From assembly GCF_900114765.1 (NCBI RefSeq), contig NZ_FOUD01000020.1, forward strand, positions 1 through 64,000: a DNA stretch of 64,000 nucleotides, given 5' to 3'. The translations under genes and the position numbers were made by a program. Origin of the DNA: Halopseudomonas pachastrellae (GTDB lineage Bacteria > Pseudomonadota > Gammaproteobacteria > Pseudomonadales > Pseudomonadaceae). A model generated the notes under the pieces. It searched no databases. It saw only the letters and a list, made by a program, of their open reading frames with translations, and was not told the origin of the DNA. Positions 5,975 through 31,514 of this stretch are shown piece after piece. How positions within the stretch are numbered: the stretch's first letter is position 1; each line of letters begins with the position of its first letter.

Positions 5975-5976
5975 GA

Positions 5977-12881: not shown

Positions 12882-13907
12882 TCAGCTGCGATACCCTTCG
12901 GGGTTTTGCGACTGCCAGCGCCACCCATCGGCGCACATGGCTTCAATACCCAGGGTCGCCTTCCAGCCCAGCTCTTGCTCTGCCAGCGTCGGATCTGCAT
13001 AGCAACTGGCGACATCGCCGGGGCGGCGGGCGACCAGCTCGTACGCTAACGTCTTGCCACAGGCTTGTTCAAAAGCCTTGAGCATTTCCAATACCGAATA
13101 GCCGCGCCCGGTGCCGAGATTGAATGCCTTGATACCCAAGCCTTGCTGCAGCCAGGCCAGCGCCCTCACATGACCATCCGCCAGATCCATGACATGGATA
13201 TAGTCGCGCACCCCGGTGCCATCCACCGTGGGGTAATCACTACCAAATACGCTTAACTTTTCCCTGCGACCAACGGCAACCTGCGCAATATAGGGCATCA
13301 GGTTGTTCGGGATATCGCTGGGGTCTTCACCGATCAGCCCGCTGGGGTGAGCGCCGACTGGGTTGAAGTAACGTAGCAAAGCCACGTTCCAGCGCGGATC
13401 GGAGGTGTATAGATCACCCAGAATCTCTTCAATGATCAGCTTGGAGCGGCCATAGGGGTTGGTCGCACTGGTGGGAAAGTCCTCGCGAATCGGCAGTGTC
13501 GCCGGGTCGCCGTAGACCGTGGCCGACGAGCTGAACACCAGATTGAAAACACCCGCGCGCTGCATCGCTTGGCACAGGGTAACGGTGCCGCTGACGTTGT
13601 TGTGGTAATAGCGCAGCGGCTGCGCTACAGACTCGCCGACCGCTTTTAACCCGGCAAAGTGAATAACGGCATCAATAGCGTGCTGCTCAAACAGTCTATC
13701 CAGCAGCGCGGCATCATTGATGTCGCCTTCAACGCAGGGCACCTCAATACCCGTGATCGCCTGCACTCGGCGCAACGCCTCCGGAGAGCTATTGCTGAAG
13801 TTGTCCAGCACCAATAGCTGGTAGCCGGCAGACAGTAGTTGAATGCAGGTGTGGGTGCCGATATAGCCGGCGCCGCCGGTGACGAGAATGCGAGCTGTGG
13901 ATTGCAT
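12882..13907 (-). CDS. galE: UDP-glucose 4-epimerase GalE
   Basis: A 341-residue short-chain dehydrogenase/reductase fold enzyme that interconverts UDP-glucose and UDP-galactose with bound NAD. The Rossmann motif [14 protein letters not shown] is at residues 8-21. The catalytic pair is visible as [10 protein letters not shown] and YGRSK, and [12 protein letters not shown] is typical of GalE. It is the last gene of the minus-strand polysaccharide operon, one base after wcaJ, and probably supplies UDP-galactose for the repeat unit. Confidence 0.93.
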
Positions 13908-13908
13908 A

Positions 13909-15324: not shown

Positions 15325-15391
15325 GATCTATTCCTGCGAATGCACAATGTTCACAAACACTGTCGGCTGCGATCTGATTAAGAGTCTTGCC

Positions 15392-15416
15392 GGGTGAAGT
15401 GGTTTCACCCCTTTTT
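15392..15416 (+). terminator. Intrinsic-terminator-like hairpin facing against the operon
   Basis: GGGTGAA and TTCACCC pair around a 5-base loop and are followed by CTTTTTG on the plus strand. It lies in the 211-base gap between manB and wcaJ, both on the minus strand, so its T-run is oriented to stop plus-strand (antisense) transcription. Read in the operon direction it has an A-run before the stem instead. Apart from this and the wcaJ ribosome-binding site, nothing recognisable is in the gap. Confidence 0.4.
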
Positions 15417-15535
15417 GCCCAACGCGTTGACAGGGCAGAGCGCTATGACGAGCCTGTGACTCAGGTCGCATAGTATCGCAGGGATCGGCTGCCGAGTGGT
15501 GCCGATTTCTGCGGTGGTGGCGCTACAGAAGCCAT

Positions 15536-16936
15536 TCAGGACATTGCGTTGATCGCGTCCAGCAATTGCTTGGTCTGCCGTTCCATGAGTGCCTGGTCAG
15601 CTCGGCTTTCAACGTTGAGGCGAATGACCGGTTCGGTGTTGGAGGCGCGCAGATTGAAGCGCCAGTCTGCAAACTCGATGCTTACGCCGTCTGTGTGGTC
15701 CACACTCAAGGCGTCACCGGCATACTGGGACTCAATGGTCTTGAGCACTGATGGGGCGTCTTTTACCTTGAGGTTGATCTCGCCGGAGGAGGGGAAGCGT
15801 GCAATACGCTCGCCGACCAGAGCTGACAGAGCCAGGCCTTTGCGGCACATGAGCTCAGCAATCAGCAGCCAAGGGATCATGCCGCTGTCGCAGTAGGCGA
15901 AGTCTCGGAAGTAGTGATGCGCGCTCATTTCGCCGCCGTAAATGGCGTCCTCATTGCGCATGCGCTCTTTGATAAAGGCATGACCGGCTTTGGTTTGTAC
16001 CGCGACGCCACCGTTACTCTCTACCTGCTCAAGCGTGTTCCAGACCAGGCGCGGGTCGTGAATGATGCGAGCGCCGTTTTCTTTCTGCAGAAACGCCTCG
16101 GCAAGCAGGCCGACGATGTAGTAGCCCTCAATAAACCGGCCTTGCTCGTCGAACAGGAAGCAGCGGTCAAAGTCGCCGTCCCAGGCGATGCCGGCGTCCG
16201 CGCCATGTTCCAGTACCGCGTCGCGCGTTGTAGCGCGGTTTTCGACGAGAATGGGGTTAGGAATACCATTGGGGAAAGTGCCGTCTGGCTCGTGGCAGAT
16301 CTTGATAAAGGTAACGGGCAGGCCGGCGGCACTGAAAGCAGCCTCAATCGCATCAACCGCAGGCCCCGCCGCGCCGTTGCCGGCGTTGACAACTAGCTTG
16401 AGCGGGCGGTCAAAGGCGGAGACGTCGATATAGCCCATGAGGTGTTTCACGAAGTCCGCGCGGGTATCGACTAGCTCATAGCTGCCGCGGTCTGCTTCTG
16501 CCACCGCCGGGTCTTTACCGTCGACCAGCTCGTAGCTGCTGGCTTCTGCCACTTCGCGAATGGCGGCAAGGCCGGTGTCAGCGGAGATGGGGCGGGCTCC
16601 TTCGCGTACCAGCTTGAAGCCGTTGTAGTCGATGGGGTTATGTGATGCGGTTACTTCAATGCCGCCATCTACGCCCAGGTGGAACGTGGCGAAGTAGACT
16701 TCTTCAGTGCCGGCCAGGCCAAGATCAAGAACGTTCACGCCTTCATCACGTAAGCCGTTGGCGAGCGCAGCTTTAAGAGTGGGGGAGGTGGCGCGGACAT
16801 CGCCACCCAAGACGATACGCTGGGGCTTGAGGAACTGTGCGAACGCGCGAGCAATACGATAGGCGATATCTTCATCGAGCTCTGTGCCGAGTTGGCCGCG
16901 GATGTCGTAAGCCTTGAAGGATGTAAGTTTATACAT
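15536..16936 (-). CDS. manB: Phosphomannomutase/phosphoglucomutase (ManB/CpsG type)
   Basis: A 466-residue alpha-D-phosphohexomutase that moves phosphate between C6 and C1 of mannose or glucose. Active-site features are the phosphoserine loop [16 protein letters not shown], the metal site [12 protein letters not shown], the sugar-binding loop [13 protein letters not shown] and the C-terminal phosphate-binding [16 protein letters not shown]. The ATG at 16936 gives the normal N-terminus [16 protein letters not shown]; a TTG 45 bases upstream could extend it by 15 unlikely residues. It sits at the 3' edge of the AT-rich cassette and has returned to high GC. In this operon it could supply glucose-1-phosphate for GalU or mannose-1-phosphate, but no GDP-mannose pyrophosphorylase is present in the window. 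Confidence 0.88.
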
Positions 16937-17014
16937 GAAAGATAGTAGATTCTTGCGGTTCAAAAAACTTTCGGTCTGCAAAGACTAAAGCGCTCTATAT
17001 TCGCGAGAAGAAGT

Positions 17015-18106
17015 CTATTGGGTGAATAAAGTTACCTCTTCTTCAAGAGTTATTCCAAATTTATCCTTAACCGCGTCTTTGATTGATAGAGCATGATGAA
17101 ATACTGTCTCGGCGGATGCATTCTCAACGTTAAGAAGTACAACAGGCCTGTTTATATCGCAGGCGACCCCCTGGAAGGTGTTCCCAGCAAAGCCTGTAGA
17201 TCGAATTAGCCAGCAGGCAGATATCTTCTTTTCACTAGGGGGGTGGTCAAAATACTCAATGTCAGGAAATTTTGATTTTAGTTCTTCAAGTTTTTGGGAA
17301 GAGATAATTGGACATTTAAAAAAGCAGCCAGAGTTTCCGATGATTCTGGGATCATTTAATGTCTTTCTACGTATTGCCTTAACGATATGGCGTTTGGCTT
17401 TGGCCGGCACGCTTCGAATGTTTAAAAAATCACGGATCTTGTCGAAGCTAATTGTGAGTTTTAGTTTTGGGTGCTTTTTGACTCGTATTGCAGAAAGGGC
17501 TAATAAAGCTGCGCGCGCTAACTCTTTTGATGTGGTGGTGATCGATGGCTTGTCTGCATTTTCTTTTTTTAAGTTAAAGGTCACACTTATGATGAAGAGT
17601 TCTGGGCGCTCTTTGAATACGCTGTTTCTATAGCTGAATTTGCAGTCGCCGTTATTGAAGGTTTCAAATTTCCCTGTTTTTGTGTTGAAGCAATGCACAG
17701 ATTCCACGTGCTCGGAAATTTCTGCGCCATAGGCTCCAATGTTATTAATAGGTGCAGCACCAACAGTACCAGGTATCAGCGATAAGTTTTCTAAGCCAGT
17801 GTAGGAATGTTGTACGGTGTAGCCTACAAAGTCGTCCCATGGAAGTCCGGCCTCTACGGTGATTAAAGATGAACCGTTCCGGTCGGACTTGTGCGATATG
17901 GACGTCATTGCAGAAGTAACTACAATTCCATCAAAAAAGGTCGGTGGGATAATGTTGTAGCCACCACCTAATACTATCACTGGGCCTTCAAATACGCGGC
18001 TGGCCCACAACTCCGATAGAGTGGATTCGCTTTCTATGGCGACGAGTTCTTTGCAACTTGATTTTACGCCAAAAGAATTTTTTATTGGGTGGCTTGCGCT
18101 AGTCAT
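17015..18106 (-). CDS. MurB-like FAD enzyme inside the polysaccharide cassette
   Basis: A 363-residue homologue of UDP-N-acetylenolpyruvoylglucosamine reductase. FAD-binding and catalytic segments resemble MurB: VLGGGYNII (usually GGGSN), LIPGTVGAAPINNIGAYG, KFSYRNSVFK, and the C-terminal EEEVTLF glutamate. The loop carrying the catalytic serine, normally GSFFKNP, reads GCFFKCP, so serine is replaced by cysteine and asparagine by cysteine. The start at 18106 has AAGGTGG upstream and overlaps the wecG stop by eight bases; 18 further in-frame codons upstream are unlikely. Codon use and AT content match the neighbouring cassette genes, not a housekeeping gene. It may modify an enolpyruvyl or related sugar nucleotide for the polysaccharide, or be a stray murB paralogue. 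Confidence 0.8.
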   Translation of the reverse strand: MTSASHPIKNSFGVKSSCKELVAIESESTLSELWASRVFEGPVIVLGGGYNIIPPTFFDGIVVTSAMTSISHKSDRNGSSLITVEAGLPWDDFVGYTVQHSYTGLENLSLIPGTVGAAPINNIGAYGAEISEHVESVHCFNTKTGKFETFNNGDCKFSYRNSVFKERPELFIISVTFNLKKENADKPSITTTSKELARAALLALSAIRVKKHPKLKLTISFDKIRDFLNIRSVPAKAKRHIVKAIRRKTLNDPRIIGNSGCFFKCPIISSQKLEELKSKFPDIEYFDHPPSEKKISACWLIRSTGFAGNTFQGVACDINRPVVLLNVENASAETVFHHALSIKDAVKDKFGITLEEEVTLFTQ

Positions 18107-18848
18107 TCTTTCCACCTTTGGTGAGTTGATTTGTTTTTTCCTTTGCAAGCAGGAGAGCAAATTGATAGTTGGACTTCAAGTATCTTTTTAATAGCCTTCG
18201 CGGTTCTTGGTAGATTCGATAGAGCCACTCTAGCCCAAGCTTTTGTATAAGTGCAGGTGCTCTTTTTATTTTTCCAGATACAACATCGAAGCTGCCGCCT
18301 ACACCCATGATAAGGTTAGCGCTAATCGCGTTCTTGTAGTCGGTTTGGAAGTACTCCTTCTCGGGGGACTTTATTCCTATGAATAATATCTTAGGCTGAG
18401 AATTGTTTATGTCTTCGATTACTTTCTTCTCTGCCCCCCAGAAGTAACCGTCATGATATCCACAGATATCAAGGGCGGGAAACTTTGATTTTACTTTTTT
18501 TACGAGTAGATCTAGTGTGTCTTTTGTTGCGCCCAAAAAATAAACCGGATATGAGTTCTTTTCTGAGACTTTCAACAGCTCCAAGAACAAGTCGACGCCC
18601 GTAACCCTTTCTGGTCTGGGTAGCCCGAGGAAAGCCGCTCCCATTAAGGCGCCGGCACCATCCATATTAACAATGTCGCACGAGTTGATAAAATCGAGTA
18701 GCTTTTTATCGCTCTGACTAGATGTGATAGTGCCGACATTTATGTCTGCCCTAATAATCTTGTCACCGTTGTCAATGTGGGTGCAAATCTTTGTTATGGT
18801 CTGATCTCGGCTAAGCTTGTCATAGTTTAGCCCTAAAATACTAGGCAT
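18099..18848 (-). CDS. WecG/TagA/CpsF family glycosyltransferase (GT26)
   Basis: A 249-residue glycosyltransferase of the family that includes WecG (ManNAcA transferase) and TagA (ManNAc transferase). Family motifs are INVGTITSSQ, the DIVNMDGAGALMGAAFLG segment with RVTGVDLFLELL, PVYFLGATKDTLDLLVKK, KILFIGIKSPEKEYF and GVGGSFDVVSGKIKRAPALI followed by GLEWLYRIYQEPRRL. The operon also carries wecB but no wecC, so UDP-ManNAc is the likely donor. It overlaps the GT4 gene upstream and the MurB-like gene downstream by eight bases each. AT-rich cassette member. Confidence 0.87.
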   Translation of the reverse strand: MPSILGLNYDKLSRDQTITKICTHIDNGDKIIRADINVGTITSSQSDKKLLDFINSCDIVNMDGAGALMGAAFLGLPRPERVTGVDLFLELLKVSEKNSYPVYFLGATKDTLDLLVKKVKSKFPALDICGYHDGYFWGAEKKVIEDINNSQPKILFIGIKSPEKEYFQTDYKNAISANLIMGVGGSFDVVSGKIKRAPALIQKLGLEWLYRIYQEPRRLLKRYLKSNYQFALLLAKEKTNQLTKGGKND

Positions 18849-19857
18849 TTTCGATTTCCTCTATGAAATCATAATATTTCGAAGCCATCTTCGTTTCGCT
18901 CGAATAGGTATGTCTAGGTGATATGTTCTCAATCGTATTGATTTTCATGGAGTTTTTAATGAATTGATTGATTGAATTTTCTAACTGAGCTACATCCCCT
19001 GCAGGGAAGAAGAAGACCTTCTTCTCTTTTGGAAGGATTTTAAACGAGGGTAGGTCTGACGCGATTACAACGTGATTACGTGCCAAAGCTTCGTAGTATA
19101 CCAGACCAAAACCCTCGTAGTGAGAAGGTACTACTATCGCATTGATTTCTTGAAGCACGGAAAAGGGGGACGAGTGATGCCCGTGTAGGATAATCCGCTC
19201 CCTGAAATTTGAGGCGGATATGCTAGTTTCAATGACCTCACGAAGTGGACCTTCACCTACTAAGTGGAGCTTTACGGTCTGGTTCGCACAAGCCACTTTT
19301 GAAAACGCATTTAACAAGTCAAGAACACCCTTTTCCTCGGAAAGCCGACCGACATAACCTAAATTTATTTCACTGCTTGAGGTGACTCGTCGCATCTCCT
19401 CCTTAGGTGGAGCGGGGATGCCGTTCGGTATTAGCCTTGGCACTAACTTGGGGTTGACTGATCTTAGAAACAAAAGGCTTGCCTCGGATACCGCAATGAA
19501 CCGAAGGTGTGAAGCAAGCCTAAATATGTAGTTTTTGTCAGGAAAGGTGCTGTGGCATATGAAGATGGCTTTACGGCTTCTTATGAATAAAAAAGGTATT
19601 AATAAAATTCGGTCGTGTATGATGAATATGTCATGTTTGTTGAGAATTAAAGTTATGAGTGTTTTTATTGCTATGAAAAGAATGTTGTTATCTTTGCCTC
19701 GCGGCGTGTCTTTCGTAAAAGAAATTATTCTACTGGAAAAGTTGCTCTGTTGGTGGCGGTGTATTTGGTGAAGTATTTTCTGGGCTCCGCCGCTTTTAAG
19801 TCGAGCGTCTCTTATTAGGTGCGTTATCTGGCTATTGGTTTTTTTTGAGGATTTCAT
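18841..19857 (-). CDS. Family 4 glycosyltransferase
   Basis: A 338-residue GT-B fold glycosyltransferase. The C-terminal half carries the GT4 pattern: NLGYVGRLSEEKGVLDLLNA, LHLVGEGPLREVIE, ILHGHHSSPFSVLQEINAIV and the donor-binding VVPSHYEGFGLVYYEALARN with the conserved E-x7-E. The N-terminal half is shorter and less conserved (ARLKSGGAQKILHQI). It overlaps wzy upstream by 26 bases and the GT26 gene downstream by 8, indicating translational coupling. The DNA is strongly AT-rich (19 of 60 bases are G or C at 19561-19620). Sugar specificity cannot be read from sequence. Confidence 0.87.
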   Translation of the reverse strand: MKSSKKTNSQITHLIRDARLKSGGAQKILHQIHRHQQSNFSSRIISFTKDTPRGKDNNILFIAIKTLITLILNKHDIFIIHDRILLIPFLFIRSRKAIFICHSTFPDKNYIFRLASHLRFIAVSEASLLFLRSVNPKLVPRLIPNGIPAPPKEEMRRVTSSSEINLGYVGRLSEEKGVLDLLNAFSKVACANQTVKLHLVGEGPLREVIETSISASNFRERIILHGHHSSPFSVLQEINAIVVPSHYEGFGLVYYEALARNHVVIASDLPSFKILPKEKKVFFFPAGDVAQLENSINQFIKNSMKINTIENISPRHTYSSETKMASKYYDFIEEIENA

Positions 19858-20998
19858 GACGCACTACCATCATAGGTATTAGGTAAAACAAAAAGTTAAA
19901 TATTGGATAAAAGAAGCTGGAGATATAAATTGAACTTATAAATATTGGCAATATTGGTTTTTTTGATTTTTTCCCAATGAAAAAAAGGTCGACCATAAAA
20001 AGAATGATTGATGCCAAGCCCATTTCGAACAAAAAGACGTAAATCTCCGCGTTGTCACGCCTTGTTAGTGCTTGATCGAACCTATAGTTGCTCCAACTTA
20101 ATTCCCATAGATTTGAGTAGTAACCCCAGTTCGAGAATCCGTAGCCGAATATTTTTTCTATTAGACTACTTTCAATCCAAACATTCCATGTCTGCGCCAT
20201 TGTATAGGTCCTGGCGGCAGCAGAGCGATCTGTTAAGTCCAGACCGCTTATGGATAAAAGTATATAAATAAATATTGCGACCGAAACCGACAGTACGGGA
20301 ACTAATTTTGAAAGGCTTTCCGCTCTTTTGGAAAAAAAGAACATGGTAATTATGTATAGGTAAAGTATGTATATAAGCCTGTTTTCGCTAAGGTATATGC
20401 ATACTGCTGTAAGCAGTAAGATCAGAAAGTCTATTGTTGAGAAGGATGCTTTTTTATATATAAACAAGAAGGACCATGAGAATAGGGTTAATCCGAACCA
20501 GTTTGGTTCTAAGAAGAATCCGCGCATTCGGTAGCCAAGGTTTCCTTTGTGTTGATAATAGCTCGCGTCTATTCCTCTTAGTTCAAGCTGGTGGTCAAAT
20601 ATGTTTATCAGTGAGTACTGGAAAAAGCCGGTGATAATTAGTGTTAGAAGTGCGAATGTTGATACTCTTTCCCAGTTTATAAATCTACTAACTCTTCCGA
20701 TTGTTTTGTATAATATTGTGAATATTAAGACGTATGAGAGCCCTGTAAGGAAGACGTCCTTATTTATTGCAAAGGGGAAATTTAGACATATATAGATGAG
20801 CAGGACGAAATATGTTGCGTCAAGCGTTGTTGGTTCGCTTTTTAAGCTCAGAAATATTAGCGGTGAAGCCAAAAGGATTGTTGCTACCCCAAGCTGTAGG
20901 TGGAAGGATCCTAGATTTATTTTTAGTAGGCTGTCAAGACATATTAGTATTGAAGAAAGGCCTATTATTGTTCCGGCTTTTATTGTGTTATTTTTCAT
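19832..20998 (-). CDS. wzy: Wzy-type polysaccharide polymerase (predicted)
   Basis: A 388-residue integral membrane protein with about ten predicted hydrophobic segments and a long hydrophilic loop near residues 255-305 (DRSAAARTYTMAQTWNVW and onwards). The motif RMRGFFLEPNWFGLTLFSW in the middle is typical of O-antigen ligase/polymerase family proteins (R.GFF.EPN..). As the only such protein in an operon with Wzx and Wzc, it should polymerise lipid-linked repeat units at the periplasmic face. It overlaps the pyruvyltransferase gene by 11 bases. AT-rich, as is usual for serotype-specific wzy genes. Confidence 0.83.
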   Translation of the reverse strand: MKNNTIKAGTIIGLSSILICLDSLLKINLGSFHLQLGVATILLASPLIFLSLKSEPTTLDATYFVLLIYICLNFPFAINKDVFLTGLSYVLIFTILYKTIGRVSRFINWERVSTFALLTLIITGFFQYSLINIFDHQLELRGIDASYYQHKGNLGYRMRGFFLEPNWFGLTLFSWSFLFIYKKASFSTIDFLILLLTAVCIYLSENRLIYILYLYIITMFFFSKRAESLSKLVPVLSVSVAIFIYILLSISGLDLTDRSAAARTYTMAQTWNVWIESSLIEKIFGYGFSNWGYYSNLWELSWSNYRFDQALTRRDNAEIYVFLFEMGLASIILFMVDLFFIGKKSKKPILPIFISSIYISSFFYPIFNFLFYLIPMMVVRHEILKKNQ

Positions 20999-22055
20999 TT
21001 TTGGTAAGGGCTGAAATCAAAAAGATTTGAGACTCTTGTATGAATTTTTGCAGCTCTTCCGTGCTGTAGTTATTGAGGATTTCGCTTGGGTGCTCTGTCG
21101 TCGTTACCGCCTTTTTCTCTAGGTGTATTCGTTTAAGCAGGCTCATTGTTCTAGCGTTTTTTTCTTCTTCTATATGTTTTATGAATGCAAATTTCTTCTT
21201 GAAGTTCATTGAGAACATGGTGCCGTGAAACGAATTGGTTACTACATATTCTGCAGAGCTAATTAATGAAAGCCATTGTGATGGTGATATGGCAAGTATG
21301 TTGTGATCGGCGGTTTCTAAAAATTTATCTCCAATATGATAGGTTGGCAGCTTGGTGAGCTCTTGGATTTTTTTTAGATATTTGCTGTACTCTGCCCTCG
21401 TAGTATCGCTGCTTACCTCATAGCTGACGATGTATTTCGATCCTGGTGTTTTGCTATGGTCCATTATATTGTTGTAATTGGATATAAGTAGCGAAGGGTC
21501 TGATACCATCTGTACATTTTTCATCGCGAACTGCTTTTTTAAGTTGTCACATAGGTGGTTTTCCCTAACTCCTATAGCGTCGAAATCTTTCAATAAATCT
21601 AGAGTCTCCTGCTCTGAGTTATCTAATGTGTGCCCGCCGGCGCTAGCGCCGTAGGCAAGTTTTTTTGTGCCTTTTTTAATAAAGGATAGATAGTACGCTT
21701 TGTCCGGCGCTCCGTTCGTTAAATGCTTGTTCCATATTTGATCGCTGCCGCATATTGCAGCGTGCGCGAAAGGAAGTTTGGCTAATTTCTTTTCTGATAT
21801 ATGGCGGGTGCTTGTTGCTAGGTGTTGCTTTGAGAATTTTTTGAATAGATAAAGTCTTCTGTATTTAAGAATTGTCTTTCCAATGCCCTTTGCTGGTCTT
21901 AGTACTTGGTTTATAAAGTACGGTGGCGTGTAATTTACTATGACTGGATTGTAATTTAATGTTCTCAGATATGCCTGTAGAGCATAAGCTTGTAGGACGG
22001 CCCCATGGTTAAGTACTGAATGAAAAGTGATCGTGTAGACTGTATTGTTTTTCAT
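20988..22055 (-). CDS. Polysaccharide pyruvyl transferase family protein
   Basis: A 355-residue member of the polysaccharide pyruvyl transferase family (CsaB/WcaK/GumL relatives), which adds ketal-linked pyruvate from phosphoenolpyruvate to sugars. Features are TITFHSVLNHGAVLQAYALQ at the N-terminus, AAICGSDQIWNKHLT, KLAYGASAGG, DAIGVRENHLCD, MVSDPSLLI and the late AEYVVTNSFHGTMFSMNF with the conserved SFHG. The ATG at 22055 shares ATGA with the wzx stop; an upstream ATG would add 16 charged residues. A negatively charged pyruvate ketal on the repeat unit is the likely result, although family members with other functions exist. Confidence 0.85.
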   Translation of the reverse strand: MKNNTVYTITFHSVLNHGAVLQAYALQAYLRTLNYNPVIVNYTPPYFINQVLRPAKGIGKTILKYRRLYLFKKFSKQHLATSTRHISEKKLAKLPFAHAAICGSDQIWNKHLTNGAPDKAYYLSFIKKGTKKLAYGASAGGHTLDNSEQETLDLLKDFDAIGVRENHLCDNLKKQFAMKNVQMVSDPSLLISNYNNIMDHSKTPGSKYIVSYEVSSDTTRAEYSKYLKKIQELTKLPTYHIGDKFLETADHNILAISPSQWLSLISSAEYVVTNSFHGTMFSMNFKKKFAFIKHIEEEKNARTMSLLKRIHLEKKAVTTTEHPSEILNNYSTEELQKFIQESQIFLISALTKNEK

Positions 22056-23338
22056 GTCGTTCTTCGTTTTAGTGGGGTGAGTGCTTTTATTTGGATTTTC
22101 CATATGTATCTGTATTTTGGTATGACTAAGTTAGAAGCTATATTTGTTATGAATAGTGCTGTGATCGTCGATATGGCCGCCCCTACGCCACCATATGGCG
22201 GTATCAATGCCAAATTCATGATGATGTTTATGGCAATGGCCAAGAGGGATTTGTAAAAAATAGTGCTGCCTTTTCTATCTGCTATAATTATCTGGCTGCT
22301 CGCCGCCCCTATAGATACTATGAGAGGCGTTATGAACGATGCCGCTAGTATCGTGGAGGCGTCTGCATAGTCGCTTCCGAACAAAACACCCGGCAGTATT
22401 CCACTTGAGATTCCTAGAATCACAGATAGAATTAATCCAATTCTGATATTTTCTTTTAGATATGCAACTCTTCCGCTCTCAATATCATTCTCTGTTCCTG
22501 TAAGTCTGAAAATTTCTGGAGCATTTGTTTGGCTAAGAAGTATAGGTGCGACGCAGAAAAGTGTCAGGATTGTAGTTGCTGCACTGTATATCCCTAATTC
22601 TTGATTTCCTCGAAAGTAACTTACCATTAGATGGTCGGCTCTTTGTAGGAAGATAATTAGGGCGCCGGAAATTACTAGCGGAAAGCACTCTGTGCATAAT
22701 GAAACTACTTTTTTGATGCTTGGACACTGGAGGTTGAGTCGAAATCCTTTGTTGTATAGTGCTAGCGCAACCAGGCTACTCGCGCCTATGTCTATTATTC
22801 GAGCGTAGATGTAGCTGTTTATTGAGAAGTCTTGCAATATTGCTAATAATAAAAAAGCGGCGATAAGTATCGATGATGCAATCTCTGATATCGCAATGTC
22901 GGAATTTTTGCCGTTAGCAAGTAGTGCGTATTTGAATATTTTTGCTGTTGAGGTTATGTGTATAAGCGAATATACGGCTGCGTAGTGTATCCAGCTGAAG
23001 TTGTCTGCTAAGAACGAGGCGCTAATTAGCAGCGCAAGTGTGACGCTTGTGCTAAAAAAAAGTCCAGCTGCTAGGCCTTCACAAATTACTTGGCTTTGAT
23101 TGGCGCCGCTAGCTATTTTTCTGACCACTATTTCTTGTACTCGGAACTCTGCAATTACGCCCAGTATTGCGCCTATTGATATGATAAGATTTAAAAGGCC
23201 ATACTGCTCGATTTGGAGTGTTCTTGCGGCGATTACGTTTAGTGCCAATACTTTTGATAGCTCTAAACCTTTTGCTATGGCTGAGCTGAGCTGGTTTTTC
23301 CGCCTTGGGGTGAAGATGTTGTTTAGAGTTTCACGCAT
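22052..23338 (-). CDS. wzx: Wzx-type lipid-linked oligosaccharide flippase
   Basis: A 428-residue polytopic membrane protein of the MOP/PST superfamily with about 12 to 14 predicted membrane segments. Early residues [20 protein letters not shown] and [15 protein letters not shown] are typical of Wzx flippases. It should move undecaprenyl-linked repeat units across the inner membrane for Wzy. It starts inside the end of wecB (8-base overlap) and its stop overlaps the pyruvyltransferase start (ATGA). The composition is AT-rich with many rare-looking codons compared with the flanking genes. Confidence 0.87.
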
Positions 23339-24482
23339 TATGGGTAGTAGTTTTCTTATGCCATAGTTTCACCTCTCGGATTATTCGCTTACATGCTTCT
23401 CCATCGCCGTAAGGGTTATGTGCCAAGGCCATCTTTCTATACGCCTCAGCATTTTCTAATAATAGGTCGAGTTCTTGGCATATTTGCTCATCATCTGTGC
23501 CTACTAAGCGAACGGTTCCTGCTGCGACCGCCTCTGGTCGCTCAGTGGTGTCACGCATCACCAACACCGGTTTACCAAGTGATGGTGCCTCTTCCTGAAT
23601 TCCACCCGAGTCGGTGAGAATGATGTGGGCACGGTTCATCAGGTATACGAAGGGTAAGTAATCTTGAGGTTCGATTAACTTGATATTTGACTGGCCGCTC
23701 AGTAGGCGGTTGACTGGCTCTCTTACGTTCGGATTTAGATGCACGGGGTAGACAATTTGTACATTGGGATGCTTCGCGGCCGTGTTTACCAGGGCTTGGC
23801 AAATACGCTCAAAACCTCCACCAAAACTTTCCCGTCGATGGCCGGTCACTAGTACCAGTTTTTTGTTGGCGTCTAGGAAGTTGAATTGCTGGTCGAACTG
23901 ATTATTGAGCTCCGGCTGTTTTAGTTTCTCAACCACCTGCAGCAGCGCGTCGATTACCGTGTTGCCAGTTATATGGATCCGGTCTGCCGGGACTGCTTCA
24001 CGGAGTAGGTTTTGCTGGGAGCCTTCGGTCGGAGCGAAATGCAGTGCAGTCAATACGCCGGTAAGCGAACGGTTCGCTTCTTCCGGCCAAGGAGAGTAGA
24101 GGTTACCGGTGCGCAAACCTGCTTCCACATGGGCTACCGGAATTTGTTGATAGTATGCAGCCAAGGCCGTTGCGAATGTGGTTGCAGTGTCCCCATGGAC
24201 CAATACGATGTCGGGCCGGCAGGTGTCCAATACGCTTTTCATGCCTTGCAGGATGGCAGACGTGACATCGGTCAGGTCTTGTCCTGGCTTCATGATATTG
24301 AGATCGAAGTCGGGCTTTAGATCGAATAGCCCTAATACTTGATCTAGCATCTCGCGGTGCTGACCTGTGACGCACACCTTGGCATCAACTTGGGGGTCTT
24401 CTGCCAGTTGCAGTGCGAGTGGCGCCATTTTGATAGCTTCGGGACGCGTACCGAATACGCAAAGGGTTTTCAATTGAGTCAT
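23331..24482 (-). CDS. wecB: UDP-N-acetylglucosamine 2-epimerase (non-hydrolysing)
   Basis: A 383-residue enzyme converting UDP-GlcNAc to UDP-ManNAc. Family signatures are [20 protein letters not shown] at the N-terminus, [58 protein letters not shown] and [20 protein letters not shown] with [16 protein letters not shown]. It supplies the presumed ManNAc donor for the GT26 transferase downstream. GlmS, immediately upstream, feeds UDP-GlcNAc synthesis, so the two genes make a coherent precursor branch. Base composition is closer to the host than the genes that follow, marking one edge of the AT-rich cassette. Confidence 0.93.
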
Positions 24483-24526: not shown

Positions 24527-26353
24527 CTACTCAACAGTGACTGACTTTGCAAGGTTGCGGGGCTTGTCGACGTCTGTGCCCTTGACTAAGGCCACATAGT
24601 AGCTGAGCAGTTGCAGGGGAAGAGTGTAGAGAATGGGAGCGATGCAGCTATTCACCCAAGGCATGTGGATGTGAGTGATGCCATCTTGATCTTGCATGTC
24701 TGCTGTCTCGCAGGCGAAGTTAATTAACTGGCCACCGCGAGCCCGCACCTCTTCCAGGTTGGACTTAAGTTTCTCCAATAGTTGGCAGTTGGGCGCAACA
24801 GATACAACCGGCATGCTTTCATCAACTAGTGCCAGCGGGCCATGTTTTAGTTCGCCAGCAGCATAAGCTTCAGCATGTATATAGCTGATTTCTTTTAGCT
24901 TGAGTGCGCCTTCCATGGCGATGGGATACAGGGGGCCGCGGCCCAGAAAAAGCGTGTGTTGTTTGTTTGCAAAGCGCTCTGCCAAGCGCTGAATATCAGC
25001 ATCTTGTTGGAGCGCTTGTTCGACTTGGGTTGGTAAGCCATGCAAGGCGCGGACTATCTCGCCGGTAATTTCTGGCGGCGCTCCGTGGGTCTGGGCGAGT
25101 GCAGCGCTTAGCCAGAGCAAGGCGGCAAGCTGGGTAGTAAAAGCCTTGGTCGACGCCACGCCAATTTCCGGGCCGGCTTTGGTCAGTAGTCGCCAATCTG
25201 CCTCGCGGGCTAATGAGCTGCCAGGCACGTTGCAAATGGCCAGGGTGGCCAGGTAGCCCTCATGCCTAGCGTGGCGCAATGCGGCTAGTGTATCCGCTGT
25301 CTCGCCTGACTGAGAGATACAGACCAGTAATGTATTTGCGGGCACAGCGACGCGACGGTAACGAAACTCGCTGGCAATTTCAACATTACAGGCGAGCCCG
25401 GCAATGTCTTCAATCCAGTAGCGAGCGACCAGGCCAGCATGGTAGCTAGTACCGCAGGCGACAATATGAATATTTTGTACTTCGTGTAGCCGCTTTTCTG
25501 CTTCAGGTCCAAGAATGGCGGTCAATACGCGATCTTCTGTAAACAAACCTGTCAAGGTGTCGCGCAGCGCCGCGGGTTGTTCGTGTATTTCCTTCAGCAT
25601 GTAATGCCGGTATTCGCCCTTCTCCATGCTGAGCTCAGCATGCTCGTAGCGTTGACTACTTACTTGTTTGGGGTTGTTGCTTGCGTCCCATTGCTTAATA
25701 CCGCACGGGCTAATAACAGCGTGATCGCCTTCCTCCAGATAGACAAAGGTGTCAGTCACCTGCAGCAAGGCGAGTGGGTCGGAGGCGATAAAGTGTTCTT
25801 CACTGCCAACCCCAATCACCAAAGGGCTGCCTTGGCGGGCGCAGTAGAGCATCTCCGGTTGGTCTTCGTGAATCACACCGATGGCGTAGGCACCGCGTAA
25901 CTGGTTGAGCGTATTGCGCAATGCGACGAGCAAGTCTTCGCTTTTACGATAGTGACTGGCAAGCAAGTGAGCGATTACCTCGGTATCTGTGTCCGAGTTG
26001 AACTCATATCCTTGCTCTTGTAGCTTCTTGCGCAAGCCCGAATGGTTTTCAATGATGCCGTTGTGCACCACAGCGAGCCTGTCGGAGCGATGGGGGTGTG
26101 CGTTGTGCTTGAGCGGTTTGCCATGCGTGGCCCAGCGGGTGTGTGCGATACCCGTTTGAGCTGTATCGGGTGCTGAGGCAATACAAGCTTCCAGCTCCTT
26201 GACTTTGCCAGTGGCTTTCCAGCTGTGAATTGTTTCACCCTTGATTATGCCAATGCCCGCAGAGTCGTATCCGCGGTATTCAAGCCTTTTTAGCCCCTCA
26301 AGAAGAATAGGGACAACGTTTCTATTACTAGTGGCGCCGACGATTCCGCACAT
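24527..26353 (-). CDS. glmS: Glutamine-fructose-6-phosphate aminotransferase (operon copy)
   Basis: A 608-residue enzyme that makes glucosamine-6-phosphate from fructose-6-phosphate and glutamine, the entry step to UDP-GlcNAc. The start MCGIVGA exposes the nucleophilic cysteine after Met removal. HTRWATHG and the HNGIIENH glutaminase segments follow, then two SIS domains with [25 protein letters not shown] and [40 protein letters not shown]. The end [12 protein letters not shown] is complete. A second, closely similar glmS of identical length lies at 29688-31514. This copy, between etk and wecB, probably raises precursor flow when the polysaccharide operon is on. Confidence 0.94.
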
Positions 26354-26390: not shown

Positions 26391-28616
26391 TTACTTGTCT
26401 GATTTGTATTCATAGTTGTAGTAGCCATAGTTGCCATATCCATACGAGGAGGCTTTTTTCTCTACCGCATTGAAGATTGCCCCTTTGAGCTGAATATCGT
26501 TTTGCTCAAACCGCCGCATAGCGACTTCGATTTCTTTTGCGGCATTTACGGCAAAGCGGGTAACGATGAGGCTCATGCCCACGTGACGGCCGACGATCGC
26601 AGCGTCTGTTACGGCAAGGATAGGGGGAGTATCTACAATAACGATGTCGTACTCGTCTTTGACGTTGTCCAGGAAGCTGGTGAAGTTTGCGTGCATCAAT
26701 AGCTCCGATGGGTTAGGAGGTATTTGACCGCGCGGTACAACCTGTAGGCCTTCGACTTCGGTTTGGTAGATCGCGTCTTTACTAGTGATTCTTGTCGCGA
26801 GCAATTCTGATAATCCATTTTCGGCGGGGAGCTTGAATAGCTTGTTCAAATATCCTTTGCGCATGTCGGCATCAATTAGCAACACGCGCTGTCCGGCCTG
26901 TGCCATGATGGCCCCTAAGTTGGCAGACACGAAGGATTTGCCGACGCCTGGGCTGGGGCCGGAAATCATCAGGATGTTGTTTTTTGCTTCGAGGCGTGCG
27001 AAGTGCAGGCTGGTGCGCAGACTGCGAAGGGCTTCGATGGCCAGGTCGGCCGGGTTGGTAACCGCCAGCAGGCCAGAGGTAGCAGTAGTAGCAGGGCGGC
27101 GACTTTTTACACCGCCTTCGACTACTTCCTGATCTCGACTGAAAGGGATAGTTGCGTAGACCGGCAGGCCGAGTTGCTCTATGACATCTGGGTCTTCGAC
27201 CCCACGATTAAGCGCTTTGCGCAGCAGCACTAGAGCGACGCCGATAAAGCCGCCTAGCAGTGTTGCGATGATCGCGATCAGCGCTTTCTTGGGTTTGACG
27301 GGCTCTTCAACATTAACGTCTGCGGTGTCGATAACGCGGACATTCCCCACAGTACCGGCGCGCAATACGTCCAGCTCCTGAGTGCTATTGAGCATGGTGG
27401 TATACACCTCGGTAGTGACGGCTACGTCACGAGTCAGGCGCAGTAATTCTTGTTGGGTGGCTGGTAGTGACTCTACCTTGCTGGTCAGCTCTGCCTTTTG
27501 GCGTTTGAGCTGCTCCATTTGGTCAAGCAGCGCTTGATAAGACGGGTGCTGACGGGTGAACCGGCGTTCCATTTCCGCGCGTTTGAGGTTTTGCTCGGAG
27601 ATCAGGGTGTCCAGCTCGACAATCTGGTCCAGGATGGCTTGGGTTTCAATGGTGATGTCAACGGATTTGGTGCTGGTTTGATACTCATTGAGCGCTTGCT
27701 CATAGCGTTCCAGCTCTTTACGCACTTGAGGCAGTTGCTCGCGCAGAAACTCAAGGCTTTGCGCGGCTTCTGCAGAGTTGCGTTCCACGTTTTGGCGTAC
27801 ATATAGTCGGCTTACTTCATCCAGGATGCTGATTGCGTATTGTGGGCTTTCGTGCTGCATGCTTAGGCTGATGATGCCGGAGTCTTTGCCGCGCTCTGAA
27901 GCGCCTAGTTGTTGTTGATAGTCGATGATGGTATTCAGCTTGCGCTGCTTGATGACGTCGAAGCGGGTTTCCGGTCGTGCGTTCAGCGCTTTCACCTGCA
28001 TGGTAAAGCCACTGCTGCTGACCTGCTCTCCCACAGCGCCCTGAAGAACAGCCTCTCCCTCATCGTTGTAAAGGGTATAGGTGTTGTTTTCGCCGGCAAC
28101 TAGCTCTAAGGGTTTACTAAGATAACTACTTGGTACGTCAAGCTGGAAGATATCGACGTTTTCACCGCCCCAGGCAAAGCTGTCAAAACCAAGCAGTGGT
28201 GAGGCTATTTCACCTTTGGTTTCCGGCTCATAGCGGCGGGCCATCCAGCGGCCAATGATGGGGAAGTAGTTGGGCTCTACAATAATATCGAGCTTCAGGT
28301 TTTCCACTGCCTGCCCGATTACCGCACGGGATTTCAGCAGCTCAATTTCCGTAACCGCCTCAGGCGTACTGCCGAGCATGTCTGAGAGTTCGCCGAGTCC
28401 GGAAAGGGTGTTACCAGACTTCTCCTCAATCTGAATCAACGCGTTAGCCTGATAAATCGGCGTCGCCAACAGCGCATAAACAACACCGATAACTGCAAAG
28501 CAGACGGTAAAGCCGGCGATGACCCATTTGCCATCTATCAATGCGCCGAGCAGGGCCAGGAGATCGATTTCGTCGCTGTCGTGCTGTGCTGCAGTAGTCG
28601 GGGTGTTGTTCTGCAT
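26391..28616 (-). CDS. etk: Polysaccharide co-polymerase/tyrosine autokinase (Wzc/Etk type)
   Basis: A 741-residue inner-membrane bacterial tyrosine kinase. The N-terminal Wzz domain starts after the first membrane segment (about residues 33-53); the second membrane segment is near 455-475 and leads into the cytosolic kinase. Walker A is GPSPGVGKS at residues 553-561, Walker A' is LLIDADMRKG, and the Walker B region is DIVIVDTPPIL. The C-terminal tail has seven tyrosines in a short stretch (SSYGYGNYGYYNYEY), the usual autophosphorylation cluster. Etk controls chain length and export with the Wza/GfcE channel encoded at 6-7 kb, and is dephosphorylated by Etp, encoded just upstream. Confidence 0.94.
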   Translation of the reverse strand: MQNNTPTTAAQHDSDEIDLLALLGALIDGKWVIAGFTVCFAVIGVVYALLATPIYQANALIQIEEKSGNTLSGLGELSDMLGSTPEAVTEIELLKSRAVIGQAVENLKLDIIVEPNYFPIIGRWMARRYEPETKGEIASPLLGFDSFAWGGENVDIFQLDVPSSYLSKPLELVAGENNTYTLYNDEGEAVLQGAVGEQVSSSGFTMQVKALNARPETRFDVIKQRKLNTIIDYQQQLGASERGKDSGIISLSMQHESPQYAISILDEVSRLYVRQNVERNSAEAAQSLEFLREQLPQVRKELERYEQALNEYQTSTKSVDITIETQAILDQIVELDTLISEQNLKRAEMERRFTRQHPSYQALLDQMEQLKRQKAELTSKVESLPATQQELLRLTRDVAVTTEVYTTMLNSTQELDVLRAGTVGNVRVIDTADVNVEEPVKPKKALIAIIATLLGGFIGVALVLLRKALNRGVEDPDVIEQLGLPVYATIPFSRDQEVVEGGVKSRRPATTATSGLLAVTNPADLAIEALRSLRTSLHFARLEAKNNILMISGPSPGVGKSFVSANLGAIMAQAGQRVLLIDADMRKGYLNKLFKLPAENGLSELLATRITSKDAIYQTEVEGLQVVPRGQIPPNPSELLMHANFTSFLDNVKDEYDIVIVDTPPILAVTDAAIVGRHVGMSLIVTRFAVNAAKEIEVAMRRFEQNDIQLKGAIFNAVEKKASSYGYGNYGYYNYEYKSDK

Positions 28617-28658: not shown

Positions 28659-29093
28659 TTATAGGTGCTTGGCCCAGCTGGCTACGCCTTGCTGTACCAA
28701 TTGATAAACGTGCTCAAACGCGGGGCGTTGCTGGCGGTAGGGGTCGGGGACCTTTTGATCGCCTTGCCATTTGCCAAGCAGGAAGGTTTTGCCGCGTGCC
28801 TCGGGGGCTATCTTGAGGATGTCCTGCACATGGCGTGGTTCCATGGTCAGGATCAGGTCGTACTGGTGCGCCATCTCGCGGGTCAGCTGCCGGGCTTTGT
28901 GATCGGGGTGATCGCCGCCGTGTTCACGCAGGACTTCCAGCGCGGTGCTGTCCATGGGCTTATCGACCAGGGCGCCGACGCCGGCGGAGGCAACGCGGAT
29001 ATTCTTGCCCGCCAGCTGATCTCGAAGCATGGCTTCGGCCATGGGGCTGCGGCAGATGTTGCCCACGCAGACAATGAGGATGGAATTGAACAT
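28659..29093 (-). CDS. etp: Low-molecular-weight protein-tyrosine phosphatase (Etp/Wzb type)
   Basis: A 144-residue phosphatase that removes phosphate from the tyrosine tail of the Etk/Wzc kinase. The P-loop CVGNICRS lies near residues 9-16 and the general-acid aspartate is in the later PDPYRQQRPAFEHVY. The ATG at 29093 gives the normal family N-terminus (MFNSILIVCVGNICRS). The frame stays open for 64 further codons to 29285, but that extension looks unlike the family and contains the ops element, so it is taken as untranslated leader. First gene of the polysaccharide operon. Confidence 0.92.
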   Translation of the reverse strand: MFNSILIVCVGNICRSPMAEAMLRDQLAGKNIRVASAGVGALVDKPMDSTALEVLREHGGDHPDHKARQLTREMAHQYDLILTMEPRHVQDILKIAPEARGKTFLLGKWQGDQKVPDPYRQQRPAFEHVYQLVQQGVASWAKHL

Positions 29094-29687
29094 GTTGCTG
29101 CTATCTCTGCCTTGAGTTGCGGCCCTCTGCGCCGTGGGTAGCTCGGAGGGCTGTTCGACTGTATCCATGGCCCCGGTGGGGGTCAAGCTTGCTGTGTCGC
29201 TAAAGTGATAGAGGCCCGAGACGCGTTGGCTGCACAATAAACAGGCGTTCAGGCACGCTACCGCCCCAGGATTTACAGTCTTCATCCTGAGGACTTTGCT
29301 TGCTTCTGGCCGTGTGTGGTGCGGTGCCAGAAGGGCGGTGATGCATTTTAGGCCGGCTTAGTATGTTTAGGTAAGGTTACTTTTTTGTGACCTTACGGAT
29401 ATTGCAACTCTCGTTAAAACAGCAGGTTGGCGGCGCAGTGCGGCTTGGGGTGCGCGCCGGGTGCTTTGAGAGGGGATGTTCGGATTGGTTCCGAATCTTC
29501 TTGAAGTGCGCCAGTGGCGGTGCAATCCGGTTGTCACCGGATTGCCTTATTTAAAAACGGTGCGCAGTTTACCTTGTTGTGCGCCATTTTTGGGCGCGAA
29601 TTTCGCTTGGATTATGGTGCTTTCGTCTATCATGCGGGTTGGCTACTGACCTGGCAGTTGTCGCTCAGTCTTATGCAAGAAGTGCAC
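29094..29687. promoter_or_regulatory. Leader and promoter region of the polysaccharide operon
   Basis: This 594-base gap between glmS (second copy) and etp should hold the operon promoter. Visible on the minus strand are the ops element (29254-29265), a weak promoter candidate with TAAAAT at 29345-29350 about 80 bases upstream of ops, a 10-base-pair hairpin with a poly-A/T loop (29371-29396) and a perfect 9-base-pair hairpin CAATCCGGT/ACCGGATTG (29523-29544). No protein gene is supported here. Confidence 0.6.
29254..29265 (-). promoter_or_regulatory. ops element (RfaH recruitment site) in a JUMPStart-like leader
   Basis: Read on the minus strand the bases are GGCGGTAGCGTG, identical to the enterobacterial ops site, preceded by TGTAAATCCTGG and followed by CC. 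That context resembles the JUMPStart sequence found ahead of RfaH-controlled O-antigen, capsule and colanic acid operons. It lies 160 bases upstream of the etp start, in the correct orientation, in the leader of an operon about 16 kb long. An RfaH gene is present at 8055-8624. Confidence 0.85.
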
Positions 29688-31514
29688 CTACTCCACGGTC
29701 ACCGATTTTGCCAGGTTGCGGGGCTTGTCGACGTCTGTCCCTTTGACCAGGGCAACGTGGTAACTGAGCAGTTGCAGGGGCAGGGTGTAGAGCACCGGGG
29801 AGACGCATTCTTCTACCCAAGGCAGGCCGACGGTCTGCACGCTGGCGTCGCCGCTGGGCTCGATGGTTTCGCAGGCGAAGTTGATCAGCTGGCCGCCGCG
29901 GGCGCGGACTTCTTCCAGGTTGGAGCGCAGTTTTTCCAGCAGGCTGTCGCTGGGCGCGACGCTGACCACGGGCATGTCTTCATCTACCAGTGCCAGGGGG
30001 CCGTGCTTGAGCTCGCCGGCGGCGTAGGCTTCGGCGTGGATGTAGGAGATTTCCTTGAGCTTGAGCGCGCCTTCCATCGCGATGGGGTAGTGCGGGCCGC
30101 GGCCCAGGAACAGGGCGTGATGCTTGTTGGCAAAGCGTTGGGCCAGCTCGGTGATGGCTGGCTCCAGGCTGAGCACGGCTTCTACCTGAGCCGGCAGAGC
30201 GCGCAGCGCATCGACGTTGCGGGCGACGTATTCGGTGCGGCCACGTGTTTGCGCCAGGGCGGTGGTCAGCCACAGCAGGGCAACCAGCTGGGTGGTAAAG
30301 GCCTTGGTGGAGGCTACGCCGATCTCGGGGCCAGCGTGGGTCAGCAGGCGCCAGTCTGCTTCGCGCACCAGCGAGCTGCCGGCGACGTTACAGATGGCCA
30401 GCGTTGCCAGGTAGCCCTGGTCTTTGGCGTAACGCAGGGCGGCCAGGGTGTCGGCGGTCTCGCCTGACTGGGAGATGGTAATCAGCAGAGTGTTGGCGGG
30501 CACGACGGCGCTGCGGTAGCGGTATTCGCTGGCTACTTCTACCTGGCAGGGAATGCTGGCCTGCTCCTCGATCCAGTAACGGGCCACCAGGCCTGCGTGA
30601 TAGCTGGTGCCGCAGGCGACGATATGGATGTTGGCAATATCTGCCAGGCGGGTTTCGGCTTCAGGACCGAGAACCGCGGTCAGAACGTGATCGTCGCCGA
30701 GCGTGCCGGCCAGTGTGTCGCTGATGGCCTGCGGCTGCTCGAAAATTTCCTTGAGCATAAAGTGGCGATACTCGCCCTTGTCGAGGCTGTGGGCGGCGTG
30801 CTCGTAGCGCGCCACCGGGCGGCTTGCGCTGTTGTGCTGACGGTCCCAGATTTCGCATTGCTCGCGGGTCACGCGGGCGTAGTCGCCTTCTTCCAGGTAA
30901 CGGAAACGGTCGGTAACCTGCAGCAGCGCCAGCGGGTCGGAGGCCAGGTAATGCTCGCCGCAGCCTTCGCCAATCACCAGCGGGCTGCCCATGCGCGAGC
31001 AGTACAGCGTATGCGGCTCGGACTCGTGGATTACGGCCAATGCGTAGGCGCCGTGGATATCTGCCAGGGTGGCGCGGAAGGCGTCCAGTACGTTGGCGCT
31101 GTCAGCATAGTGGTGTGCCAGCAGGTGGGCGACCACTTCGGTGTCGGTCTCGGAGGTGAACTCAAAGCCGAGGTCTTGCAGGCGTTTGCGCAGCGGTGCG
31201 TGGTTTTCGATGATGCCGTTGTGCACCACCGCCAGGCCGTTGGAAATATGCGGGTGGGCGTTGCGCTCGGCGGGTTTACCGTGGGTGGCCCAGCGGGTGT
31301 GGGCGATGCCCAGGGTGCCGTTGACCGGCGTGGCCTGCAGGGCGCTTTCCAGCTCGGCAACCTTGCCGACCGCGCGTACGCGCTGGATGCCGTCACCGGG
31401 GTTCAGTACAGCAACGCCGGCGGAGTCGTAACCGCGGTATTCGAGACGGCGCAGGCCTTCAAGCAGAATGGGGGTGATATCGCGCTGGGCGGTGGCGCCG
31501 ACGATTCCGCACAT
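29688..31514 (-). CDS. glmS: Glutamine-fructose-6-phosphate aminotransferase (second copy)
   Basis: A 608-residue paralogue of the operon glmS, with the same domain order: glutaminase N-terminus [23 protein letters not shown], then two SIS domains ([40 protein letters not shown]). The two proteins share long identical stretches. The start at 31514 is fixed by the required N-terminal cysteine and by AAGGA upstream; codons before it are not used. It stands alone on high-GC DNA and is probably the housekeeping copy for peptidoglycan and LPS precursors. In many bacteria glmS follows glmU; that neighbour is not here. Confidence 0.94.
   Translation of the reverse strand: MCGIVGATAQRDITPILLEGLRRLEYRGYDSAGVAVLNPGDGIQRVRAVGKVAELESALQATPVNGTLGIAHTRWATHGKPAERNAHPHISNGLAVVHNGIIENHAPLRKRLQDLGFEFTSETDTEVVAHLLAHHYADSANVLDAFRATLADIHGAYALAVIHESEPHTLYCSRMGSPLVIGEGCGEHYLASDPLALLQVTDRFRYLEEGDYARVTREQCEIWDRQHNSASRPVARYEHAAHSLDKGEYRHFMLKEIFEQPQAISDTLAGTLGDDHVLTAVLGPEAETRLADIANIHIVACGTSYHAGLVARYWIEEQASIPCQVEVASEYRYRSAVVPANTLLITISQSGETADTLAALRYAKDQGYLATLAICNVAGSSLVREADWRLLTHAGPEIGVASTKAFTTQLVALLWLTTALAQTRGRTEYVARNVDALRALPAQVEAVLSLEPAITELAQRFANKHHALFLGRGPHYPIAMEGALKLKEISYIHAEAYAAGELKHGPLALVDEDMPVVSVAPSDSLLEKLRSNLEEVRARGGQLINFACETIEPSGDASVQTVGLPWVEECVSPVLYTLPLQLLSYHVALVKGTDVDKPRNLAKSVTVE

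Follow-up and report, generated by a model that had tools for sequence, protein, structure and literature searches.

A predicted RfaH/ops antitermination element ahead of the etp polysaccharide operon of Halopseudomonas pachastrellae, and its linkage to rfaH in Pseudomonadaceae

Introduction

The closest described system to the one considered here is the RfaH-ops circuit of E. coli and other enterobacteria, in which RfaH is paired with a long polysaccharide operon that carries the ops 12-mer with a hairpin before it. The available part of PMC5995543 gives roles for the ops bases C3:G8, G4, G5, T6 and the TG end, and names K10, H20, R23 and R73 as the RfaH residues in direct contact with ops; JUMPstart elements, according to the available part of PMC2864571, carry a conserved stem-loop. 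A second group of relatives are the cis-encoded NusG paralogs (UpxY, LoaP and monomorphic RfaH), where the regulator gene lies beside or inside the polysaccharide cluster that it probably serves. The available part of PMC13015549 proposes that monomorphic RfaH adjoin their operons, whereas for most metamorphic rfaH genes the surrounding operons are non-adjacent and likely not targets.

In the Pseudomonadaceae, ~60% of members lack RfaH and hence ~40% have it, with both loss and duplication, as far as the available text of PMC7593976 goes. In Azotobacter and P. stutzeri 273 rfaH adjoins surface-polysaccharide loci, a linkage known from PMC4465626 and PMC5532660, the latter of which places an RfaH-domain protein within an EPS locus; the available passages of both accounts describe no ops or JUMPStart element, and the word "JUMPstart" is absent from PMC5532660. 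Among the open-access papers listed by our searches, these two and PMC2375017 included, we found no description of ops or JUMPStart in Pseudomonadaceae. An earlier note on this DNA had stated that RfaH control of capsule operons is not a standard theme in Pseudomonas, and this has to be narrowed: RfaH in the family was already known (PMC7593976, available part), while none of the papers that our searches listed describes a linked family of ops elements.

We have analysed a 64-kb stretch of the H. pachastrellae genome (hereafter the window). The locus shares with the enterobacterial circuit the identical 12-mer, an RfaH above the equivalog cut-off, a long polysaccharide operon and a hairpin before ops; it differs in having one detectable target, in an rfaH that belongs to or borders the cluster which it probably serves, as with the cis-encoded paralogs, and in that two of the four ops-contact residues are changed. 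It differs from UpxY and LoaP in scoring below their cut-offs and in the presence of a canonical ops. The type of mechanism is known; what is new is a widespread element missed by Rfam and linked to rfaH, a genome with a single detectable target, and a sister clade without detectable ops.

Results and discussion

An ops core within a 47-nt JUMPStart-like element

Two nested features were located in the leader of the operon:

29254-29265, minus strand: ops core GGCGGTAGCGTG, exact pattern match
29251-29297, minus strand: 47-nt JUMPStart-like element, from the genus alignment and a match to model R1, with ops at its end

The core reads GGCGGTAGCGTG without mismatch (12 of 12) from 29265 to 29254 on the minus strand, which also codes for the etp operon, and lies 160 nt upstream of the likely etp start (ATG 29093); GGCGGTAGCNTG has no other exact match within the window. 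A perfect ops ahead of the etp operon, and TGTAAATCCTGG 5' of it, had both been claimed in the earlier note, and both are indeed there. The window ops has C3:G8, G4, G5, T6 and the TG pause end, and stands before the first gene of the operon.

Upstream of ops, CCTCAGGA and TCCTGGGG are able to pair, with stem arms at 29285-29291 and 29265-29271; the modelled stem has 7 bp, the last of which uses the first G of ops. Across 16 genus sequences, 96.4% of the stem cells are paired, and in two pairs both partners have changed (AU to GC, in 3 and 1 of the 16 sequences, respectively); four pairs are invariant, and one fails to form in 4 of the 16. Control structures slid out of register gave no double-sided pair change of that kind. 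A single-sequence RNA fold of the leader was unremarkable and uninformative (z -1.2), and no run of T follows the hairpin in the window sequence. The Rfam model for JUMPstart, RF01707, aligns over all of its 38 positions, stem and ops tail included, with a score of 24.7 bits where 35 are required; the window element differs from that family in a longer loop and in other stem letters. The element is therefore JUMPStart-like, below the RF01707 membership score, with a hairpin present directly before ops.

Assuming equal base use, chance would give ~0.008 exact 12-mers on the two strands of 64 kb, so the earlier note's expectation of well under one chance match holds for the window. In the whole genome, GGCGGTAGCNTG occurs 8 times and a reversed control pattern also 8 times, and since these counts are equal the bare 12-mer is weak evidence. 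When up to two mismatches are permitted, the window has 30 ops matches against 32.6 expected. The JUMPStart flank, judged by eye, is found at one of the eight genomic 12-mer sites, the one in the window. The evidential weight rests on this flanking hairpin, and not on the 12-mer alone.

For surveys we built a covariance model (R1) from 16 genus elements, the window being among the training rows; two further loci (L017 and L033) were aligned but excluded, as their hairpin half was out of register. The genus alignment was selected by the ops core, which makes the invariance of the core in it partly circular. R1 finds one site in the window genome (E 7.7e-17, for a sequence that is itself a training row), and at the sensitivity of R1 this is the one detectable target in that genome. 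At its own cut-off, RF01707 matched none of the 37 genus genomes and none of 18 named element-bearing loci (out of 80 fetched, see below). It was rejected as a tool to survey the relatives, giving two sub-threshold matches in the 37 genomes, one of which (L039, with a core ending in GTT, not GTG) was taken as chance.

The polysaccharide operon and its leader

Read as longest ORFs, the operon extends from etp (ATG 29093) to the end of an epimerase gene at 12882 and comprises 13 genes in 16.2 kb, with a largest intergenic gap of 211 bp. Its genes, assigned by domain annotation, are as follows:

28659-29093, minus strand: etp, low-molecular-weight tyrosine phosphatase
26391-28616, minus strand: etk/wzc, polysaccharide tyrosine kinase
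24527-26353, minus strand: glmS-like gene, within the operon
23331-24482, minus strand: UDP-GlcNAc 2-epimerase family, wecB-like
22052-23338, minus strand: wzx-like polysaccharide flippase
20988-22103, minus strand: polysaccharide pyruvyl transferase
19832-20998, minus strand: possible polymerase (wzy), matching Wzy_C weakly at 21.3 bits, below the Pfam cut-off of 31.7
18841-19857, minus strand: glycosyltransferase
18099-18848, minus strand: WecG/TagA-type transferase
17015-18160, minus strand: MurB-like FAD protein
12882-16981, minus strand: phosphoglucomutase/phosphomannomutase, WcaJ-type priming transferase and NDP-sugar epimerase (galE-like), at the end of the operon

GC content is 39-44% at 18-24 kb, compared with 57-66% outside 16-28 kb of the window. 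Promoter and terminator scans inside the operon gave no excess over shuffled sequences. A second glmS-like gene (29688-31511) lies just upstream of the operon, in the same direction as the one at 24527-26353; together, the two perhaps provide an extra supply of glucosamine-6-phosphate for the polymer. The gene for the MurB-like FAD protein shares this sugar operon with a pyruvyl transferase.

In the leader, the following candidate sites were noted:

29345-29374, minus strand: possible promoter TTACCT-18-TAAAAT, weak, found by eye, ~80 nt upstream of ops
29158-29186, minus strand: promoter-like TTGACC-17-TACAGT, from the promoter scan (1 found, 0.3 expected), downstream of ops
29372-29395, strand not applicable: 24-bp palindrome TAAGGTTACTTTTTTGTGACCTTA, overlapping the possible -35 (1 found, 0.06 expected)

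Three genus genomes (G001, G008 and G017) have the layout of the window, with the element before etp and a convergent rfaH 21-23 kb away. The earlier note had pointed to the etp leaders of relatives as the place to look for ops conservation, and there the element is identical to that of the window at 47/47 positions in G001 and G008, and at 46/47 in G017. The 160-column 5' flank, in contrast, is 97.1, 30.8 and 52.7% identical in G001, G008 and G017, and the remaining leader 93.5, 59.3 and 45.4%, respectively; G001 is too close for an informative footprint comparison. Since the 5' region of G008 is unrelated, these alignments indicate that the element outlasts its promoter, as expected for an elongation signal.

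The possible promoter upstream of ops, which the promoter scan did not list, is kept in G001, recognisable in G017 and absent from G008. The site downstream of ops, the sole promoter-like site that the scan listed, is present in G001 and G008 and not in G017; transcripts starting there would lack ops if it were the main or only promoter. The palindrome TAAGGTTACTTTTTTGTGACCTTA, found with a pattern taken from the sequence itself and missed by a general inverted-repeat search, is kept in G001, largely in G017 and not in G008, and is probably a candidate regulator site. An SD-like TCAAGGCAGAGA block and ATG 29093 are kept in all three genomes, which supports this etp start. A start at the upstream ATG 29285, which would put ops inside a longer Etp, was rejected, as the phosphatase domain begins only at residue 69 of that ORF; it is also disfavoured by the retention of the SD-like block and ATG 29093 while much of the leader varies.

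RfaH encoded in the same cluster

At the other end of the cluster lie rfaH and a set of export genes:

about 8055-8624, plus strand: rfaH (TIGR01955 181.5 bits, cut-off 144.5; PRK09014 156.6, cut-off 124)
2407-7095, minus strand: gfc/yjb-type export genes (wza-like, GfcB, GfcC, YjbH), adjoining rfaH

The rfaH ORF is open from 7986, and the start at 8055 was picked by homology. The gene adjoins the export genes, which have no element of their own by R1, and precedes pgi and the genes of a nucleotide-sugar dehydrogenase and a nucleotidyl transferase. Both the 16-kb etp-etk-...-galE polysaccharide operon and an rfaH some 21 kb away by the export operon (20.6 kb by our count) are thus found as the earlier note had described them. 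Between the export genes and rfaH, at 7201-7512, there is a Gly/Ala-rich frame of 103 aa (32 Gly, 17 Ala) with a signal-like start, which by its position may be a small gene of the yjbE/gfcA type.

The product matches RfaH chains in the PDB with E 8.1e-32, and by NCBIfam cut-offs it is neither UpxY (74.5 vs 100) nor LoaP (56.2 vs 125); the closest RfaH is that of G001, at 98%. Compared with the E. coli protein, K10, Q13, R16, Q24, E48, F56, T72, R73, I93, F130, R138 and L142 are kept, while H20 and R23 have both become N. Two of the four ops-contact side chains are thus kept (K10 and R73) and two are changed. Among 23 genus homologues (rows with less than 130 aligned aa or with stops are omitted), N20 occurs in 17 and N23 in 21. 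The autoinhibition residues E48, I93 and F130 are present in the window RfaH, with Q at position 48 in 9 of the 23 homologues; the Rho-contact I-F-G of NusG is lost, and LLH stands at the LIN positions.

With an alignment of 34 sequences, AlphaFold2 models the C-terminal domain as a beta-barrel (mean pLDDT 79.5), and the best PDB match of this model is fully recruited RfaH (8phk); with five sequences, low-confidence C-terminal helices are obtained (pLDDT 53). Because the two models disagree, ops-dependent autoinhibition is a candidate property of this protein.

Conservation and co-occurrence of the element and RfaH

Among the 37 genomes of the genus, 26 carry an R1 match, 29 an RfaH above the cut-off and 25 both, with one genome having the element only, four RfaH only and seven neither (Fisher p 2e-4, uncorrected for relatedness). 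An ops site that is not conserved in relatives that keep rfaH would, according to the earlier note, have spoken against the circuit; ops is kept, as 25 of the 29 RfaH-bearing genomes have the extended element. The four with RfaH and no element (G024, G028, G030 and G032) are assemblies of 80-510 contigs and 75-95% completeness, and the RfaH of G032 has an internal stop. The only element-bearing genome without an RfaH match, G004, consists of 350 contigs and is 92% complete.

Across 298 genomes of the family, R1 matches 79 at E <= 0.001, although some matches near the threshold (e.g. 4.0e-4 and 7.9e-4) may be false, and RfaH (E <= 1e-30) is found in 78 of these 79 and in 170 of all 298. This corresponds to 78 genomes with both, 1 with the element only, 92 with RfaH only and 127 with neither (p 3e-22, again uncorrected for relatedness; counts read by eye from two lists of matching genomes).

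The ops core is exact in 34 of 38 loci found by R1, up to 16 of which belong to the training set, and differs in the last 1-3 bases in the other four. In these (L065 and L066, of G034 and G009, and L062 and L070, of G012), a JUMPStart flank is followed by a core ending in ATT or GTA, not GTG; they are possibly decayed or altered ops, and G009, G034 and G012 carry RfaH.

Proposed mechanism and rival explanations

We suggest that the site is very probably an RfaH/ops antitermination switch that serves mostly the local polysaccharide operon. By analogy with E. coli, RNA polymerase in the leader would pause at ops; the exposed non-template strand could then be read by RfaH made from the other end of the same cluster, and RfaH, by staying on the polymerase, would protect it from Rho-dependent polarity on its way through the 16-kb, partly AT-rich operon. 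The 7-bp hairpin just before ops is a conserved part of the element, judging from its sequence and two covarying pairs. In many relatives the element directly follows rfaH, or separates etp-etk from the later sugar genes. RfaH looks like a local, near-dedicated antiterminator, with the linkage observed and the function predicted from sequence. In favour of this reading are the 47-nt footprint, the co-occurrence and linkage with rfaH, the polysaccharide families downstream, the RfaH residues that are kept, the lost Rho contact and the fall in GC. Against it stand the two changed ops-contact residues, the conflicting models of the C-terminal domain, the sister clade without detectable ops, G004, the genus sites far from rfaH or on other contigs, the unremarkable RNA fold and the promoter-like site after ops, the last of which slightly lowers our confidence. 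The "intact, self-contained RfaH circuit" of the earlier note is a reasonable description in so far as a single element fits "self-contained"; as a general rule it falls short, with the pairing not being universal, and its function is a prediction.

A competing reading, which overlaps with the switch that we favour, is that of a monomorphic, constitutively active RfaH with action in cis, for which ops would be a pause aid and not an obligatory key. We regard it as unlikely. The beta-barrel C-terminal domain of the larger AlphaFold2 model and its match to 8phk would agree with it, as would an rfaH that lies within the cluster it probably serves, which is how the available part of PMC13015549 describes monomorphic RfaH; E48, I93, F130, R138 and L142 are nonetheless kept, ops is little changed although a purely cis-acting factor would have no need of it, and the second AlphaFold2 model is helical, if of low confidence.

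We find it very improbable that the leader element is mainly an RNA hairpin or pause, i.e. an attenuator or processing site, and that the link to RfaH reflects nothing beyond membership of the same cluster. Such a role would fit the conserved stem with its two covarying pairs and the four RfaH-bearing genus genomes without the element, but it is at odds with the exact 12-nt ops core, with the presence of RfaH in 78 of 79 element-bearing genomes and with the absence, in the window, of a T run behind the hairpin. That the leader carries the 12-mer by chance, a reading to which we assign next to no probability, could appeal to the equal counts of GGCGGTAGCNTG and its control (8 and 8) in the genome; we have rejected it in view of the 47-nt footprint, the conservation in the genus and the rfaH linkage, and the other seven 12-mers are without the flank.

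A sister RfaH clade without detectable ops

In genus g15, which we infer to be Stutzerimonas-like, an R1 match was found in 4 of 48 RfaH-bearing genomes. In 30 of the other 44, searched with laxer filters, there was no R1 match at E <= 0.001 (best 0.0101), and no RF01707 match at E <= 0.01. The 8 kb around each of 20 g15 rfaH genes contained no exact ops, with three one-mismatch matches on either strand, and in 16 of those genomes none was found 6-24 kb upstream of rfaH, with five such matches on either strand; the one-mismatch matches have no leader position in common. In loci L199-L218 and L219-L234, which belong to this Stutzerimonas-like RfaH, no ops or JUMPStart was detected, and in the one annotated g15 locus (L204) rfaH lies among glycosyltransferase and wzc genes.

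In a tree of RfaH, from which identical rows are omitted, the 20 g15 proteins group with five of two other genera, giving a clade of 25 with support 100/93; for these five, the absence of ops is based on the 1 kb after rfaH and the R1 search of the family. The RfaH of the ops-free clade retains most ops-contact residues as well as the autoinhibition residues. The four R1-positive g15 genomes have two RfaH matches each, and ten others have at least two RfaH and no R1 match, so that a second copy of RfaH alone does not bring ops. Judged by these searches, the RfaH-ops pairing is not universal in Pseudomonadaceae.

Genomic contexts of the element

Of the 39 R1 sites in the genus, 17 follow an rfaH of the same strand at a distance of up to 1 kb, and 10 more are within 30 kb of it; four are farther than 30 kb away, and eight are on other contigs. 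A scan of named genomes, with a pattern derived from the genus elements that underrates divergent forms, gave 106 stretches, of which 80 were fetched, containing 82 sites in 82 distinct contexts. The names are Pseudomonas, Halopseudomonas, Stutzerimonas, Azotobacter or Serpens in 73 of the 80; the remaining seven comprise two from Alcanivorax and single ones from Salinicola, Marinospirillum, Perlucidibaca, a Moraxellaceae assembly and a Methylophilaceae assembly. At 39 of the 82 sites rfaH is at most 1.5 kb upstream on the same strand, at 21 the end of etk is at most 400 nt upstream, and at six the start of etp or etk is within 300 nt; 17 have none of these contexts.

For 77 of the sites there was an ORF starting within 1 kb (five had none), and the longest of these was compared with Pfam, members with no Pfam match being uncounted: flippases (13), Wzz (8), GNVR (8), nucleotide-sugar dehydrogenases (7), Wzc (5) and 2-epimerases (4) were the commonest families, and Beta-Casp nucleases (3) were among the others.

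R1, a model missing from Rfam, gives the RfaH of Pseudomonadaceae a predicted target list. The surface polysaccharides that come under predicted ops control in this way are those of Halopseudomonas, several Pseudomonas groups and Azotobacter, and of a few relatives in Alcanivorax, Salinicola and the Moraxellaceae. This touches on a question raised in the part of PMC13015549 available, namely whether RfaH was local before its ops-guided action at a distance, because ops-linked RfaH and RfaH without detectable ops share one family here. We tentatively speculate, without holding it to be the likelier case, that Pseudomonadaceae represent an intermediate stage, in which RfaH is guided by ops yet tied to its own cluster; each genome of the genus would carry one or two elements, and rfaH-ops would form a cassette before exchangeable sugar genes, beside an ops-free sister clade. 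If this is true, the pair of clades would offer a natural experiment on the passage of a NusG paralog from local to sequence-guided recruitment.

In two loci, L126 (H. yangmingensis) and L089, two elements lie 3.3 and 1.8 kb apart, respectively, on one strand, with a partial RfaH-like match between them; in G036, the matching RfaH-like piece is a 61-aa open frame. The piece between the paired elements is possibly a remnant of rfaH.
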